In this document: in pieces, positions 7,568 to 16,797 of the stretch
Position numbering within the stretch: the first letter of the stretch is position 1
Layout of the letters: the number at the start of each line of letters is the position of its first letter
Origin: Salinirussus salinus
Lineage (GTDB): Archaea > Halobacteriota > Halobacteria > Halobacteriales > Haloarculaceae
NCBI RefSeq assembly: GCF_009831455.1
Contig: NZ_WOWO01000002.1
Location: 372,001-436,000, forward strand
DNA: 64,000 nucleotides
Direction of reading: 5' to 3'
Program-made: the position numbers and the translations under genes
Notes under the pieces: generated by a model
Seen by the model: only the letters and a program-made list of their open reading frames with translations
Told to the model about the DNA's origin: nothing
Databases searched by the model: none

Positions 7568-9022
7568 TCAGTAGCTCTTGGCGAAGTAGGCAGTCTCTTC
7601 GGCCGGCTCACCGCAGATCGCACACGCATCGTGGACCGGCTCGGCGTCGCGGTCCTCGGGGACCATCACGATCTCCGCCGCGATGGCCTCCTTGATCGGT
7701 TCCTCGCAGTCCTCGTCGCCACACCAGCCGGCCTTCACGTAGCCGCCGTGCTGGCCGATGGTTCCGAGGATCTCTTCGCGGCTCTCGGCCTCGCGGACCT
7801 CGCCCTCCAGCGTCTCCTCGGCGTCCGCGTACAGCTTCGCGAAGACGGTGTCGAGGTGGTCGGTGACCGTCCCGGCGACCCCATCGAAGTCGGCGGTCGC
7901 GCGCTCCCCGTCGGGCCGGTGGACCAGCGTCACCTCGCCGTCCTCTACCTCGGCGGGACCGACTTCCACGCGCAGCGGCACGCCCTTCAGCTCCCACTCG
8001 TTGTACTTGAACCCGGGATTCCGGTTCTCGCGGTCGTCGAGGTCGACCCGCAGCCCCGCCGCGTCCAGCGCCGCCTCCACATCCTCGGCGTACTCGATGA
8101 CTTCGTCCTTGTTCTCCTCCTGCCAGATGGGGACGACGACCACCTGCGTGGGCGCGAGCGTGGGCGGGAGCACCAGTCCCTGGTCGTCGGAGTGGGTCAT
8201 GATCAGCGCGCCCATCGCCCGCCAGGACAGCCCCCAGGAGGTGGTGTGGGCGGACCGGTCCTCCTCGTCGGCGTCGGCGTAGGTGATGTCGAAGGCCTCC
8301 GCGAAGGACGTCCCCAGGTAGTGGGAGGTCGCCCCCTGCACCGACTTGCCGTCGGGCATCAGCGCCTCGACGGTCGTCGTGGTGTGTGCGCCGGGGAACT
8401 TGTCGTGTTCGGGCTTGCGACCGCGGAGGACCGGAATGGCGAGCACCTCCTCGTAGACGCGCTCGTACTGGTCCAGCCGGGTCATCGCCTCCTCCCAGGC
8501 TTCCTCCTGGGTGGCGTGGGCGGTGTGGCCCTCCTGCCAGAGGAACTCCTTGGTCCGGAAGAAGGGCTTGGTCTCGGTGGCCTCCCACCGGACGACCGAA
8601 CACCACTGGTTCAGACGGAGGGGGAGGTCCCGGTGTGAGCGGACCCACTGGGCCATGAACGGGGCGATGATCGACTCGCTCGTGGGCCGCACCGCGAGTC
8701 GCTCCTCCAGCTCCTCGTAGCCGCCGTGGGTCACCCACGCCACCTCGGGGTCGAACCCCTCGACGACGTCTTTCTCCCGCTCCAGGTAGCTCTCCGGGAT
8801 GAAGAGGGGAAAGTAGGCGTTCCGGACGCCGGTGTCCTTGAACCAGCCGTCGAGGTAGTCCTGAATGCGCTCCCAGATGGCGTAGCCGCGCGGGCGGGTG
8901 ACGATGAACCCGCCCATCGGCGCGTAGTCGGCGAGGCCGGCCTTCCGGACGACCTCCGCGTACCACTCGCCGGTGGCGTGCTCCTTCGATTCGGTGATCC
9001 CCAGGTCCTGCTCGTCGCTCAT
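7568..9022 (-). CDS. proS: Prolyl-tRNA synthetase
   Basis: A 484-residue class II aminoacyl-tRNA synthetase of the archaeal/eukaryotic ProS type, which charges tRNA-Pro. The sequence shows the class II core: motif 1 region near GFIVTRPRGYAIWERIQ, motif 2 around RWEATETKPFFRTKEFLWQEG, and a C-terminal anticodon-binding domain. It ends in the hallmark zinc-like extension with C-x-x-C pairs and a terminal Tyr (AYFAKSY). The length is normal. The ATG at 9022 has a TATA-like TGTTTATGGG element about 25-30 bp upstream, which fits a leaderless mRNA. It is divergent from the next gene. Confidence 0.95.
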   Translation of the reverse strand: MSDEQDLGITESKEHATGEWYAEVVRKAGLADYAPMGGFIVTRPRGYAIWERIQDYLDGWFKDTGVRNAYFPLFIPESYLEREKDVVEGFDPEVAWVTHGGYEELEERLAVRPTSESIIAPFMAQWVRSHRDLPLRLNQWCSVVRWEATETKPFFRTKEFLWQEGHTAHATQEEAWEEAMTRLDQYERVYEEVLAIPVLRGRKPEHDKFPGAHTTTTVEALMPDGKSVQGATSHYLGTSFAEAFDITYADADEEDRSAHTTSWGLSWRAMGALIMTHSDDQGLVLPPTLAPTQVVVVPIWQEENKDEVIEYAEDVEAALDAAGLRVDLDDRENRNPGFKYNEWELKGVPLRVEVGPAEVEDGEVTLVHRPDGERATADFDGVAGTVTDHLDTVFAKLYADAEETLEGEVREAESREEILGTIGQHGGYVKAGWCGDEDCEEPIKEAIAAEIVMVPEDRDAEPVHDACAICGEPAEETAYFAKSY

Positions 9023-9144
9023 TGGTGGCGTGTGCGGGACCGACCCATAAACAGGCTACGTTTCACGGGGCTATCGAGGCATCCTCAGCCGCCCGACCCC
9101 GCCAGCGCAAACAGAGTTATGGCCCTGGCGCCCGGCTCCCGTCT

Positions 9145-9735
9145 GTGGCTCGCCCGACGATCACGACTCGTCCCTGCGAGACGACGGAGACCCGACACGT
9201 CACCGAACTCCTGTACGACGACGGTGAGAACGACGACACGCTGGTCCTCGCGCTCCACGGCGGCGACGTCGAGCCCGGCACCGCCGAGACGGCAGTCGAA
9301 CTCGCCAGCCGCCTGTCCGACGCGACCTGCTGGGCCAGGCTCGGCTACGACGACGGCGGCGCCTTCGAGGCCTGGCACCCGCCCTCAAAGCAGATCGGCC
9401 CGGCCGACCACCCGCTGCTCGCCGAGGTCGCGGGTCGGGGGTTCGACACCGTGCTCAGCCTCCACGGCCGCGCCGACGAGGAGGTCGTCGTCGGCGGTCG
9501 GGCCGACTCCGCCGCCAGACGGACAGTCAGAAACCGGCTCGACGACGCGCTTCCGGTCCCGGTCCGGACGGCCGCCGACGGCCCCTACGCCGGCGTCCAC
9601 CTCGAGAACCCGGTGAACCGGCTCGCGGCCGGCGAGGGCGGCATCCAGCTCGAACTCGCTCCCTCCGCCCGCGGGGAGCACGCCGGCGCCGTCCGGGAGA
9701 CGCTCGCGGACCTGGTCGCCGCCGAACGGTTCTGA
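9145..9735 (+). CDS. Poly-gamma-glutamate hydrolase family protein
   Basis: About 196 residues, starting at a GTG. An upstream in-frame ATG at 9022 would add a poorly conserved-looking, non-acidic tail. The region around residues 29-34 (LALHGG, then an acidic residue) resembles the zinc-site HGG..E motif of the phage poly-gamma-glutamate hydrolase family (PF05908), and LSLHGR and VHLENPVNRL follow in the expected order. Family members hydrolyse gamma-glutamyl polymers. No capsule or PGA synthesis gene is nearby, so the real substrate is unknown. There is no signal peptide, so it is probably cytoplasmic. Confidence 0.65.
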   Translation: MARPTITTRPCETTETRHVTELLYDDGENDDTLVLALHGGDVEPGTAETAVELASRLSDATCWARLGYDDGGAFEAWHPPSKQIGPADHPLLAEVAGRGFDTVLSLHGRADEEVVVGGRADSAARRTVRNRLDDALPVPVRTAADGPYAGVHLENPVNRLAAGEGGIQLELAPSARGEHAGAVRETLADLVAAERF

Positions 9736-11254: not shown

Positions 11255-12202
11255 TCACGTTCCCCACCACTTCACGACGCCGTAGAGGTACCCGAGCCCG
11301 ACCGCAGCGGTGAAGACCCAGAGCATCGCGAACTGGAGTCCCCTCTCGACGGACGGGTCGCTCGCGAGCCCGCGGAGCCGCTCGGGAACCGAATCGAGCA
11401 GCAGCGCCCCCAGGAAATCCGACTCCGCGTCGGTAGAGCCGGATTCCGGGACCAGCACCTCCATCCCGCGCTTGGAGTAGCCCTGCCAGAACGCCCGGTC
11501 GAGCAGCCACGCGGGGTCGGTCCGGTAGTCGAACACCTTGTGCGCGACCTCCGCGTCGGGGGTGTAGTAGACGCCGTGGCCGTACGCCCGGTCCATCCGG
11601 GCACAGAGTTCGGTCTCGCCGCCCTGGAGGTTGGCGTCGCCCTGCCGGCCGCCGATCTCGGCCTCGAACCCGCCCAGTCCCAGAAAGACCTCCCGCCGGA
11701 AGGAGATGTTCGACCCGAAGGTGTTGCGGACCTCGCCGGCCTCGTCGGGGTCGCCGTCCGGGCCGTACCCCCGGTGGGTGACGCCGACCAGCCAGTAGAA
11801 TTCGGCGGGCAGGAAGCCCGGCCTGCCGGCGACCCAGGCGGGTGTCATCCGCCCGCCGACCGCCGGCACGTCCCGCTCCTCGTAGACGGCGACGAGTTCG
11901 GCTACCCACTCCTCGTCGGCCACCGCATCGTCGTCGAGGAAGGCGACGACGTCCCCGGTCGCGGCCTCCGCGCCGTTGTTGCGGCTCTCCAGCAGGCCGA
12001 CGTTCCCCTCGTTGCAGTGGACGACGGCGTCGGAGCACTCCCCGTAGTCCTCGCGCAGGCGCGCGCAGACGTCGTCATTCCCGTCCGCGACGAGCACCAG
12101 CTCCACGTCGTCGTGGGTCTGGGCGAGGACGCTCTCGGCTGCCTCACGGAGGTCGCCGTAGCGGTCGAGGGTGTGCTCGCAGACGACCACCGAGACGCGC
12201 AT
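11255..12202 (-). CDS. aglG: Glycosyltransferase family 2, AglG-like (glucosyl-dolichyl phosphate glucuronosyltransferase)
   Basis: 315 residues starting MRVSVVVCEH. A GT-A fold is visible, with nucleotide-sugar contacts in VLVADGNDD and the DxD-type metal motif in FLDDDA (about residue 92). A late acidic catalytic region GGETELCARM follows, and a C-terminal hydrophobic segment (FAMLWVFTAAVGLGYLYG) may anchor it to the inner membrane face. Size, C-terminal helix and position next to aglB resemble AglG, which adds the second sugar in the Haloferax N-glycan. The upstream in-frame extension to 12385 would run into the aglB promoter and gene, so it was not used. Substrate assignment is by similarity and context only. 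Confidence 0.72.
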   Translation of the reverse strand: MRVSVVVCEHTLDRYGDLREAAESVLAQTHDDVELVLVADGNDDVCARLREDYGECSDAVVHCNEGNVGLLESRNNGAEAATGDVVAFLDDDAVADEEWVAELVAVYEERDVPAVGGRMTPAWVAGRPGFLPAEFYWLVGVTHRGYGPDGDPDEAGEVRNTFGSNISFRREVFLGLGGFEAEIGGRQGDANLQGGETELCARMDRAYGHGVYYTPDAEVAHKVFDYRTDPAWLLDRAFWQGYSKRGMEVLVPESGSTDAESDFLGALLLDSVPERLRGLASDPSVERGLQFAMLWVFTAAVGLGYLYGVVKWWGT

Positions 12203-12320: not shown

Positions 12321-15300
12321 ATGAGTAACTGGCGCGAGGAGTTCGAGGACGGCTCGGGGGTCGCGGCTGTCACGGCCTGGCTCACGAGCTACTACCACTA
12401 CGTCGCGCTCGCCGCGCTCGCCGGGTTTACGCTCTGGAACCGCACCCGCTTCTGGGGCCGCTTCGTCGTCGACGGCCGGACGCTGCTCTCGGGCAACGAC
12501 CCTTACTACCACCTCCGCAGCGTCCAGTACGTCGTCGAGAACTACCCCGCGACGATGCCCTTCGACCCGTGGACGTACTTCTCCTACGGGACTGCGAACT
12601 CCCAGTTCGGCACGCTGTACGACCAGCTGATCGCGACGGCCGCCCTGGTCGTCGGGCTCGGGAGCCCGAGTGACGAACTCGTCCGGACGGTCGTCCTCTT
12701 CGCCCCCGCGGTCTTCGGGGTCGCCGTCATGGTCCCCGCCTACCTCCTCGGCCGGCGGCTGGGTGGGCGGGCCGGCGGCGTCGTCAGCGCCGCCGTCATC
12801 GCGCTGGGCGCCGGCGCCGTCCTCCAGCAAGGGATGGTCGGCAGCGCGGACCACCACATCGCCGAGGTGCTGTTCCAGGCGCTCGCGGTGCTGGGCGTCG
12901 CCGTCGCGCTCGCGGTCGCACGCGAGGAGAAGCCGGTCTGGGAACTGGTCAGAGCCCGCGAGTTCACCGCGCTCCGCCGCTCGCTGGGGTGGGCGGCCCT
13001 CGCCGGCGTCGCCATCGCCGCCTATCTCTGGGTGTGGCCGCCGGGCGTCCTCCTGCTTGGCGTGTTCGGTCTCTTCTTCCTCGTCCACCTCAGCGTCGAG
13101 TACGTCCGCGGGTCGAGCCCGGAACACGCCGCCTTCGTCGGCGCGGTGGCGCTGTCGACCGCCGGCGTCCTCCAGTTGCCGATGCTCGATACCCTCGGAC
13201 TCACCGCCACCGGCCGGTCGCTGCTCCAGCCCGGACTCGCTATCGGCGTCGCCGCCGGCTGTGTCTTCGTCGCCTGGCTGGCCCGCCGGTGGGACGCAAG
13301 CGACCAGCCGGCCCGTTACTTCCCCGCCCTCACGTTCGGCCTGGTCGCGGCCGTCGGTATCTTCGTGGCAGTGGTCCTCCCCGACACCTTCGGCTACTTC
13401 GTCACCCAGGTCGACCGCGTGCTCGGCTTCGTCACCGGGCAGAGCGCCCAGGCCGCGACGGTCGTCGAGGCACAGCGGGGGAGCCTCGACACCGTTTACG
13501 GGGCCTACAAGCTCGCGGCCGTGACGGCGCTTCTGGGAGCGGGGGTCCTGCTGGGCCGGCAGGTGCTCGACGACGACCCCGGCGGCGAGGGCTTGCTGGT
13601 CGTCCTCTGGGCGGCACTCATGCTCTCGGCGACGCTCACCCAGGGCCGCTTCGCCTACTACATGGCCGTCCCCGTCGGCGTGCTCAACGCCGCCCTCGTC
13701 GGGTGGGCGGCCGGCTACATCGGGAGTGTCGGTGAGGACGGCGCGATAGAGACCTACCAGGTGCTTGCGGTCGGCGTCGTCATTCTGGTGGTGCTCGCGC
13801 CCATGATGCTCATCGCCCCGACAGCGATGGCGACTGCCCAGCAGACCCAGGCCCCGGGCAGCGTCACCGGCTGGCAGGGCAGCCTGGAGTGGATGGAGGA
13901 GAACACGCCCGCCGAGGGGCAGTTCGCCAACCCCGACGGCGACCCGATGGTCTACTACGGCACCTACGAGCGGACCGACGACTACGACTACCCCGAGGGC
14001 GCATACGGGGTGATGTCGTGGTGGGACTACGGCCACTGGATCACGAACATCGGCGAGCGGGTCCCCAACGCCAACCCGTTCCAGCAGGGAGCGACCGACG
14101 CCGCGCGGTTCCTGCTCGCCGGCACGGAAGCGGAGGCCGCGAGCGTCCTGAGCGAGATCGACGAAGCGGACGCGACGACGCGCTATGTGATGATCGACAG
14201 CCAGATGGTCGGCGGGAAGTACCAGGCCCCGCCGCAGTTCGCACCGAACGTCACCCGGTCTGACTTCTTCACCCGGTCGACGCTCAACCGCCGGGTGCTC
14301 CAGCAGTACGCCCGGGCGTTCCAGCAGCAGGGGCTCTCCGAGGCCGGCGCGGCGCGGCAGGCCCAACAGATCGCCACCGTCCGCCACCAGACCCAGGCCT
14401 ACTACGAGTCGATGATGGTGCGGCTGTACGCCTACCACGGTAGCTCGATGGAGCCCCGCCCCTACGTCGTCGACTGGGAGCAGGTCCGGACCGAGCAGGG
14501 GGTCCGCCTCGTCGAGCCCGAGAACAGCTCGATGTTCCGGGTGTTCGAGAACATGAGCGCGGCCCGCGAGTTCGCCCGCCGGGACGGGACGGCCGCCGTC
14601 GGCGGCTTTGGCCCTTACCCCAAGGAACGCGTCGAGGCGCTGGACCACTACCGGCTGGTCCAGACCGGCTCCAGCCGGTCCGGGAAGTTCGCCCGCGACG
14701 TGGTGGGCGTCGGTTACACCTCCCGGACGGTCCTCCAGCAGCTGGGCAACGGGTCGCCGGTCGCCCAGCAGTACCTCCGGGACCTGACCACGCAGGTCCG
14801 GTCGTCGGACGGGTTCACCAAGGTGTTCGAGCGCGTCCCCGGCGCGCAGGTCCAGGGCGACGGCGCCCCCGCGAACACCAACCTCACGATGCAGGTCCGG
14901 ATGAACCCCGCGAACGGTGGGAACTTCACCTACAGCAAGCGGGTCGAGACTGACGCCGACGGGGAGTTCGCCACGACGGTCCCCTACTCGACGACCGGCT
15001 ACGAGAACTGGGGGCCCGAGCAGGGGTACACCAACGTGAGCGCCCGCGCGACCGGCCCCTACACCATCTCCTCGGGGCTCCGGACCAACGAGACCGGCTC
15101 GGTCGTCACCTACCAGGCGTCGGTCGACGTCACCGAGGCACAGGTCATCGGCGAGAACACCACCCCGATACAGGTGACACTCGACGAACGGGCGCTGAAT
15201 ATCGAGGGTCCCTCGAACGGGACCGACGGGAGCGACAGCAGCGGGTCGGACGGGAGCGGCACCGACGGGAGCGACAGCAGCGGGTCGGACGGGAGCGGCA

Positions 15301-15404
15301 CCGACGGGACTGACGGGAGCGGCACCGACGGGACTGACGGGAGCGGGGACGACACCACAGGTTCGGTCCCGCTCGGGCCCGTTCAGGCCGCGCGGGCGGG
15401 GTGA
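12321..15404 (+). CDS. aglB: Dolichyl-phosphooligosaccharide-protein glycotransferase AglB (STT3)
   Basis: 1027 residues. AglB moves the assembled glycan from dolichyl phosphate to Asn of S-layer and other exported proteins. The N-terminal half holds about a dozen membrane spans, with the early acidic loop SGNDPYYHLR (about 57-66) typical of STT3 proteins. The catalytic signature WWDYG is at residues 567-571, followed by a large external soluble domain. The last 50 or so residues are an unusual Gly/Ser/Asp/Thr tandem-repeat tail encoded by DNA repeats at 15228-15346. The stop overlaps the GTG of the next gene, a DUF368 transporter, by 4 bp. The aglG-like gene is divergent. Confidence 0.95.
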   Translation: MSNWREEFEDGSGVAAVTAWLTSYYHYVALAALAGFTLWNRTRFWGRFVVDGRTLLSGNDPYYHLRSVQYVVENYPATMPFDPWTYFSYGTANSQFGTLYDQLIATAALVVGLGSPSDELVRTVVLFAPAVFGVAVMVPAYLLGRRLGGRAGGVVSAAVIALGAGAVLQQGMVGSADHHIAEVLFQALAVLGVAVALAVAREEKPVWELVRAREFTALRRSLGWAALAGVAIAAYLWVWPPGVLLLGVFGLFFLVHLSVEYVRGSSPEHAAFVGAVALSTAGVLQLPMLDTLGLTATGRSLLQPGLAIGVAAGCVFVAWLARRWDASDQPARYFPALTFGLVAAVGIFVAVVLPDTFGYFVTQVDRVLGFVTGQSAQAATVVEAQRGSLDTVYGAYKLAAVTALLGAGVLLGRQVLDDDPGGEGLLVVLWAALMLSATLTQGRFAYYMAVPVGVLNAALVGWAAGYIGSVGEDGAIETYQVLAVGVVILVVLAPMMLIAPTAMATAQQTQAPGSVTGWQGSLEWMEENTPAEGQFANPDGDPMVYYGTYERTDDYDYPEGAYGVMSWWDYGHWITNIGERVPNANPFQQGATDAARFLLAGTEAEAASVLSEIDEADATTRYVMIDSQMVGGKYQAPPQFAPNVTRSDFFTRSTLNRRVLQQYARAFQQQGLSEAGAARQAQQIATVRHQTQAYYESMMVRLYAYHGSSMEPRPYVVDWEQVRTEQGVRLVEPENSSMFRVFENMSAAREFARRDGTAAVGGFGPYPKERVEALDHYRLVQTGSSRSGKFARDVVGVGYTSRTVLQQLGNGSPVAQQYLRDLTTQVRSSDGFTKVFERVPGAQVQGDGAPANTNLTMQVRMNPANGGNFTYSKRVETDADGEFATTVPYSTTGYENWGPEQGYTNVSARATGPYTISSGLRTNETGSVVTYQASVDVTEAQVIGENTTPIQVTLDERALNIEGPSNGTDGSDSSGSDGSGTDGSDSSGSDGSGTDGTDGSGTDGTDGSGDDTTGSVPLGPVQAARAG
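15228..15346 (+). repeat. Tandem repeats encoding the AglB C-terminal tail
   Basis: Two identical 39-bp units (15228-15266 and 15267-15305) are followed by a 24-bp unit (15306-15329) and a shortened copy of it. In frame they encode runs of GSDSSGSDGSGTD followed by GTDGSGTD. Exact DNA identity between units indicates recent expansion by slippage or unequal crossing-over. Confidence 0.85.
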
Positions 15405-16480
15405 CCGTGGCGGGCGAGCCCGCACACGAACCGGACCGGGGCGAGGAGGCGTCCGGCGAGAGCAGTGACGGCGACCCCACGGCCCGCGAGCCGGACGGCG
15501 AGCACGCCGGAGCGGCCGCGGCCACGGGCACCGGCAACTCCCTCCGGGACCTCGGCACCGTCTACCTCAAGGGGACGGCGATGGGGGCCGCGGACACGAT
15601 CCCCGGCGTCTCCGGCGGGACTATCGCGCTCATCACCGGCATCTACGAGCGGTTCGTCCGGGCGCTCACCCGGCTCGACCCCCGGATTCTCCGTCACGTC
15701 CCCCGCCTCCACCGCGCCGAGGGCCGGCGCGACCTGCTCGCCGACCTCCGGGAGATGGACTTCTTCTTCCTGGTGGCGCTCGGGCTGGGCGTGGTGACGT
15801 CGGTCGTCACGCTCTCGCGGGTGATGCATCTCGCACTCGAAACGGCCAGAGCCCCGACCTTCGCCTTTTTCCTCGGGCTCATCGCCGCGTCGGCGGTCGT
15901 CCTCTACGGCGAGCTGAACCTCGAGTCCGCCGGACAGGCGGTCGCTGGCCTCGGCGGATTCGGACTCGCCTTTCTGCTCAGCGGCGCAGCTGCCGAGGGT
16001 CTCCTCGGGAACGGTCTCCCCGTGATCTTCGCCGTCGGCGCGGTCGCGGTCACGGCGATGGTCCTGCCCGGTATCTCGGGCTCGTTCATTCTCATTCTCC
16101 TCGGGCAGTACTACTATCTCACGGGCGTTCTCGGGGAATTCGTCGACGGGGTCATCGCGGTGGTCACCGGAGGGGCGGCGGGAAACCTCCCCTCGCTCGC
16201 CACCGTCGTCGTCACCTTCGTCGCGGGAGCAGTCGTCGGTCTGGTGAGCGTCGCCCACCTCATCCGGTGGGCGCTGGACGCGTACCGGACGGCGACGCTG
16301 GTCTTTCTCGTGAGCCTGATGGTCGGCTCGCTCCGCCTGCCGGTGGTCGAGGTCACGACCAACGTCGACGCGTGGACGCCGGCTGCGGCGGGGCTCATCA
16401 CACTCGCCGTCGTCGTCGGCGCGGGCGCCGTTCTCCTGCTCGACTACTACACGGCGGACCTGTCGGGGATGGCGAACTAG
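15401..16480 (+). CDS. DUF368 (PopT-type) polyprenyl-phosphate transporter family
   Basis: 359 residues from a GTG that overlaps the aglB stop (GTGA). After a hydrophilic N-terminus of about 45 residues, the protein has multiple membrane spans. It carries two related loop signatures, TIPGVSGGTIALITG (about 66-80) and VLPGISGSFILILLG in the second half, which are the diagnostic inverted-repeat motifs of DUF368. Bacterial DUF368 proteins (PopT) return undecaprenyl phosphate across the membrane. The tight coupling with the oligosaccharyltransferase suggests that this one recycles the dolichyl phosphate released by AglB (inference). It ends tail-to-tail with cutA. Confidence 0.85.
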   Translation: MTVAGEPAHEPDRGEEASGESSDGDPTAREPDGEHAGAAAATGTGNSLRDLGTVYLKGTAMGAADTIPGVSGGTIALITGIYERFVRALTRLDPRILRHVPRLHRAEGRRDLLADLREMDFFFLVALGLGVVTSVVTLSRVMHLALETARAPTFAFFLGLIAASAVVLYGELNLESAGQAVAGLGGFGLAFLLSGAAAEGLLGNGLPVIFAVGAVAVTAMVLPGISGSFILILLGQYYYLTGVLGEFVDGVIAVVTGGAAGNLPSLATVVVTFVAGAVVGLVSVAHLIRWALDAYRTATLVFLVSLMVGSLRLPVVEVTTNVDAWTPAAAGLITLAVVVGAGAVLLLDYYTADLSGMAN

Positions 16481-16797
16481 CCCCGGTTGTCGCCGACGGC
16501 CCCGGCCCGCCAGTCCGCGAAGGCGTCGAGGACGTCGTCCTCGTCGAAGCGCTCGATACAGGGGACGTCGTGGGGATGGAGCGCCAGGACGCGCTCGCGG
16601 AGGTCGTCGTACCCTTCGGTGGTGGTTTTCGCCAGCAGAACGACCTCCGGCTCCTCGTGGACCTCCCCCTCCCACCGGTAGGTGGAGTGGCAGCCGAGGC
16701 GGTTCACGCAGGCCGCGAGCCGCTCCTCGACGAGCGTCTCGGCGATGTCGGCGGCCGCCTCGGGCGGAGCGGTGATGTAGGCGGTCGGCACGCTCAC
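16477..16797 (-). CDS. cutA: Divalent-cation tolerance protein CutA
   Basis: 106 residues, the usual CutA size. Family landmarks include a start of the PTAYITAP type, LVEERLAACVN (about 22-32), the CHSTYRWEGEV segment and EVVLLAKTT. CutA forms small trimers with a ferredoxin-like fold linked to copper and metal tolerance; its precise role in archaea is unclear. Its stop overlaps the stop of the DUF368 gene on the other strand by 3 bp, and its start overlaps the end of the HEWD-like gene upstream, so the two minus-strand genes are probably co-transcribed. Confidence 0.9.
   Translation of the reverse strand: MSVPTAYITAPPEAAADIAETLVEERLAACVNRLGCHSTYRWEGEVHEEPEVVLLAKTTTEGYDDLRERVLALHPHDVPCIERFDEDDVLDAFADWRAGAVGDNRG

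Follow-up and report, generated by a model that had tools for sequence, protein, structure and literature searches.

We found that popT, a gene of the DUF368 family, lies directly 3' of the oligosaccharyltransferase gene aglB in the haloarchaeon Salinirussus salinus, and that this arrangement is widely kept in Halobacteriales. The best reading of the arrangement, to which we assign a probability of about 0.7, is that PopT is a putative dolichyl-monophosphate importer expressed together with AglB; here we infer the co-transcription of the two genes, the substrate, the direction of transport and the service to N-glycosylation. A role of PopT in recycling the lipid carrier is partly supported by the conserved adjacency, by the invariant residues of the protein, and by a haloarchaeal homologue that is reported to work in a bacterial mutant. 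The DUF368 family and its likely activity are already known, and what appears to be new is the conserved tie to an oligosaccharyltransferase in an archaeal setting. The literature we searched, in which coverage of papers on the family is incomplete, appears to hold no report of DUF368 as a standing operon partner of aglB.

The aglB-popT locus of Salinirussus salinus

The window is the whole stretch of S. salinus DNA that was analysed, 64,000 nucleotides in length. Its features relevant to the pair are the following.

11255 to 12202, minus strand: aglG, of the glucosyl-dolichyl-phosphate glucuronosyltransferase type and divergent from aglB (NF041394, 477 bits; cut-off 440)
12321 to 15404, plus strand: aglB, archaeal oligosaccharyltransferase of the archaeosortase-A-system type (TIGR04154, 821 bits against a cut-off of 450; STT3, AglB_core and AglB_L1 domains; WWDYG)
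15401 to 16480, plus strand: popT (DUF368), polyprenyl/dolichyl-phosphate transporter family (open reading frame; PF04018, 206 bits; start compared with that of a congener)
15401 to 15409, plus strand: junction GTGACCGTG, with the aglB stop TGA and two candidate popT starts (15401 and 15407)
15581 to 15622, plus strand: first conserved PopT motif MGAADTIPGVSGGT, at the first predicted broken helix (motif alignment and model)
16055 to 16081, plus strand: second conserved PopT motif AMVLPGISG, at the second predicted broken helix (motif alignment and model)
16477 to 16797, minus strand: cutA, convergent with popT (PF03091, 98 bits)

The popT open reading frame comprises 359 codons, starts with GTG and is on the same strand as aglB. 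It is the sole DUF368 gene in the S. salinus genome. By its score the upstream gene belongs to the TIGR04154 subfamily of AglB, and the WWDYG motif is present in its translation. The listed open reading frame of aglG extends to 12385, and its family match starts at residue 62; the divergent aglG/aglB arrangement is one that the window shares with many haloarchaea. Because popT and cutA meet tail to tail and share bases in their stop codons, the operon should end with popT. The predicted operon is therefore the two-gene unit aglB-popT, which would be co-transcribed, with aglG divergent upstream.

Two further observations concern the surroundings of the pair. The C-terminal tail of AglB (15209-15370, just 5' of the popT junction) consists of a repeat rich in Ser, Gly, Asp and Thr (GTDGSDSSGSDGSGTDG...), and comparable low-complexity tails occur in the AglB proteins of relatives, for example at loci L141 and L201. 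At 9022-9735, an open reading frame with a poly-gamma-glutamate hydrolase domain (PF05908) adjoins a prolyl-tRNA synthetase gene.

Where does popT start? The aglB TGA occupies 15402-15404 and the first popT GTG occupies 15401-15403, giving GTGA, and the DNA continues to a second candidate, the GTG at 15407 (...GCG GGG TGA CC GTG...). In the sole other genome of the genus that we compared (G001, locus L016), the junction reads TAA-CC-GTGGCGGGCGAGCCC, with a GTG start 2 nt past the aglB stop. This start is the equivalent of 15407 and lacks the 4-bp overlap. The popT start in the window is ambiguous, and 15407 is more likely than 15401. The first-pass annotation had described popT as overlapping the aglB stop by 4 bp and as translationally fused to aglB. 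The GTGA is real in the window, but it is not kept in the congener, and a conserved overlap was rejected for that reason. Moreover, aglB and popT are two separate open reading frames, which are at most translationally coupled. Judged by position, either start is near enough to the aglB stop for such coupling.

Conservation and history of the pair

Our survey covered 145 Halobacteriales genomes that were at least 90% complete, in which DUF368 and TIGR04154 matches were joined by their coordinates. DUF368 was detected in 144 of the 145 genomes, as was AglB. In 106 genomes, from 9 of the 11 families, DUF368 follows aglB on the same strand, within 2.6 kb; G063, which is among these, has the UDP-glucose dehydrogenase gene aglM between the two. 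The adjacency, for which the first-pass annotation had proposed a survey across Halobacteria, is thus conserved in Halobacteriales and is not unique to this strain, and conservation in 106 of 145 genomes excludes chance adjacency. The pair is missing from 39 genomes, about a quarter of the sample. Genomes of this kind have popT at another place or have an unlinked paralogue. Assembly effects probably account for at least two of the exceptions: G061 has aglB and popT on separate short contigs, the latter at the end of its contig, and the search with TIGR04154 found no AglB in G068. The sole sampled Halobacteriales genome in which no DUF368 was found, G027, is about 98% complete, and it has AglB and two DedA-family matches.

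A conserved pair might reflect passive gene order, in which an ancestral neighbourhood has merely stayed unbroken. Neutral neighbours can last for a while, and unlinked copies of popT function elsewhere. However, all the other neighbours of the pair have been reshuffled, at protein identities near 40-55%. When the genes around popT were clustered in 62 linked loci, the gene just before popT was aglB in 61. The next most constant neighbour was the divergent aglG at position -2 (25 of 59 linked loci), and the best recurring gene 3' of popT appeared in only 7 of 47. Both flanks have been reshuffled while aglB-popT persists, and therefore the pair is not kept by conservation of the whole region. 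The junction itself is also tight, which is a further argument against passive order: when read base by base, 42 of 64 linked loci still have a popT start no more than 10 nt away from the aglB stop, and the nearest start sits at -4 in 10 of them and at -1 in 8 others. We consider passive gene order extremely improbable.

Elsewhere in the phylum DUF368 is patchy, being present in 21 of the roughly 122 genomes outside Halobacteriales, and it was not found next to STT3 among them. Two candidate links to AglB were rejected, in both cases on neighbouring genes named by eye. In the methanogen family f33, DUF368 lies 12-14 kb from STT3, and its neighbours are uracil permease-like and uracil phosphoribosyltransferase-like. 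In Methanomicrobia-like loci (L215, L223, L224, L225 and L226), DUF368 adjoins a sugar-nucleotide epimerase-like gene, and 2-oxoacid:ferredoxin oxidoreductase-like genes lie further on. A single Thermoplasmata MAG (L047, 1515-8933) holds a codirectional row of STT3, AMMECR1, a dihydroorotase-like gene, DUF368 and an inositol-monophosphatase-family gene, in which STT3 and DUF368 are 1.9 kb apart and the DUF368 ATG overlaps the preceding stop.

A maximum-likelihood tree of 111 PopT sequences, with a bootstrap that is not fully settled, contains two kinds of PopT, for which we coined the names PopT-1 and PopT-2. PopT-1, the kind linked to aglB, occurs across the families. The 33 rows of PopT-2, none of which is linked to aglB, form a well-supported clade (100/97), and PopT-2 is found in Haloarcula-like genera, in most Natrialbaceae, and elsewhere as second copies. 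It branches beside the PopT-1 of Haloferacaceae, a placement that looks as if PopT-2 had spread from there. The PopT-2 loci (L164-L198) have varied housekeeping neighbours, such as genes for a thermosome subunit and MutS-like and ArgE-like proteins, and no glycosylation genes.

The pair was found in both halves of an AglB tree of 70 rows and is therefore probably ancestral to Halobacteriales. The tree shows at least four losses of linked PopT-1, and the genomes affected have unlinked PopT-2. Independent contrasts between PopT-1 loss and PopT-2 presence gave three cases for, none against and one tied (p ~0.25), too few for significance. Linkage is not required, since AglB works alongside the unlinked paralogue in Haloarcula-like genomes and in most of those from Natrialbaceae. 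At L201, a locus from the window's own family in which PopT-1 has been lost, cutA is still convergent downstream of aglB, with other genes between.

In some Haloferacaceae, popT-1 adjoins aglM, another N-glycan gene, instead of aglB. It is divergent from aglM in Halobellus rufus and in G112 and G131, and the order is aglB-aglM-popT in G063. In the genus represented by L232-L234, the order is aglG|aglB-aglM and popT then comes after aglM; we take the order of the first three genes to be that of Haloferax. Haloferax-like genomes differ from the window in that aglM, in the opposite orientation, is inserted between aglB and popT. Their popT is two genes from aglB and beside aglM, and for this reason the H. 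volcanii protein HVO_RS12060, likewise a haloarchaeal DUF368, is probably orthologous to the linked clade. Its gene would sit at the place after aglM, as in L232-L234. Among the pathway members listed for the H. volcanii agl cluster (aglJ to aglM) in the cluster description consulted, popT does not appear (PMC5867893).

PopT as a member of the DUF368 family

The popT protein matched PF04018, currently described as 'undecaprenyl phosphate translocase-like', at 206.4 bits (cut-off 26) over positions 1-227 of the 246 in the profile. PF04018 was the only Pfam family matched, and there was no match to DedA/VTT (PF09335). Against the NCBIfam equivalog models NF052564 (Vibrio type) and NF052563 (PopT), the core of the window protein scored 180.8 and 87.1 bits. 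Because these scores are well below the 400-bit cut-offs, we regard the window PopT as a member of the family and not as an equivalog of either type. Both models match all 64 of the 64 aligned DUF368 members.

We counted 37 positions as invariant, each conserved in at least 90% of the sequences in all three groups: linked and unlinked PopT of haloarchaea, and bacterial PopT. The window PopT retains 36 of these 37, the sole change being L39F. The invariant positions centre on two similar motifs, and the corresponding family patterns, MGxADxxPGxSGGT and AMxLPGxSG, are both present in the protein. Its structure is predicted with confidence to be all-helical (pLDDT 94, pTM 0.88), and in this model the two matching PG(V/I)SG motifs would each break a helix. 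Searches by sequence found no solved relative of the fold, only chance matches to potassium channels. Likewise, Foldseek and VIA-align found no solved structure that scored above unrelated helical transporters when compared with the model.

Bacterial PopT/DUF368 proteins, such as V. cholerae VCA0040 and S. aureus SAOUHSC_00846, belong to the same Pfam family as the window PopT and share its invariant motifs, and the window protein is about 34-38% identical over the core to the bacterial members aligned. In contrast to the bacterial genes, the window gene is in a predicted operon with an oligosaccharyltransferase, and its product does not reach the NCBIfam equivalog cut-offs. For the return of undecaprenyl phosphate to the cytoplasmic face, the leading candidates are bacterial DUF368 proteins, whose mutants show more of this carrier on the surface (PMC9876793). 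HVO_RS12060 at least partly complements a V. cholerae vca0040 deletion, and the discussion in that work already points to dolichol phosphate and Halobacteria (PMC9876793). In S. salinus the carrier should be dolichyl and not undecaprenyl phosphate, since an archaeal host is without peptidoglycan.

Proposed return of dolichyl phosphate and competing roles

The archaeal N-glycan donors characterised so far are mainly dolichyl monophosphate (PMC4476749), and therefore AglB should release dolichyl phosphate (Dol-P). The first-pass annotation had allowed for release of either the phosphate or the pyrophosphate; the phosphate agrees with these donors, whereas the pyrophosphate branch is probably minor. 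In the cycle we propose, AglB, acting at the outer face, would move the glycan from Dol-P onto protein and leave Dol-P on that side of the membrane. PopT would return the Dol-P to the cytoplasmic face, where glycosyltransferases of the AglJ/AglG type would recharge it. Dol-P would be the form that PopT handles, with no phosphatase acting before transport, so that a transporter made with AglB would close the cycle. Co-expression would also match recycling capacity to the output of the oligosaccharyltransferase, and PopT would serve N-glycosylation above other uses of Dol-P. A stronger version of this proposal, about which we are doubtful, is that PopT is a dedicated Dol-P return transporter that has been in an operon with AglB since the Halobacteriales ancestor, and that it possibly resides in an AglB complex in which Dol-P is handed on directly.

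Is PopT specific to N-glycosylation? It could be a general polyprenyl-phosphate recycler for all Dol-P pathways, including N-glycans, exopolysaccharide and other glycoconjugates, that acts conditionally (alkaline, high sodium) and beside DedA, with the aglB site providing a convenient constitutive promoter. UptA/DedA flippases (PF09335) have been proposed to do the same job, return of the polyprenyl phosphate carrier, although they belong to a different Pfam family. All 59 haloarchaea examined, G027 included, have DedA/VTT proteins, and the three DedA matches in the window genome all lie away from the aglB-popT locus; such proteins may share or take over Dol-P return. The bacterial DUF368 and DedA proteins are redundant and act under certain conditions (PMC9876793), and among Pseudomonas species the two families substitute for each other (PMC12893004). 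The housekeeping surroundings of the PopT-2 clade also favor a general role. However, a general role leaves unexplained the link to aglB in nine families and the link to aglM where aglB has moved away, and we consider it unlikely. The ubiquity of DedA in the haloarchaea examined and the mutual replacement of the two families in Pseudomonas nevertheless suggest that a single popT deletion may give a mild or conditional phenotype.

A gene adjoining aglB would also suit an outward flippase that supplies AglB with its lipid-linked oligosaccharide substrate, and we know of no settled forward flippase for the Dol-P-oligosaccharide in haloarchaea. The bacterial relatives of PopT, however, act on bare C55-P and in the return direction, and the haloarchaeal homologue substitutes there (PMC9876793). 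Moreover, 19 of the 64 linked loci already have Wzx-type flippase genes (PF13440/PF01943) close to aglB; these are better candidates, which makes an outward role for PopT less likely. Altogether we judge such a role very unlikely, and import of Dol-P remains the reading we prefer.

To our knowledge, no Dol-P return transporter has been established, in archaea or in eukaryotes, for the step of N-glycosylation that brings the spent carrier back to the cytoplasmic face. The natural swap to an unlinked paralogue in the Haloarcula-like and Natrialbaceae lineages provides a comparative control. With a conserved operon of an oligosaccharyltransferase and a PopT-family gene, the question of carrier return comes down to deleting a single gene in Haloferax volcanii or Halorubrum, where surface Dol-P and the glycosylation of the S-layer would offer a ready readout.
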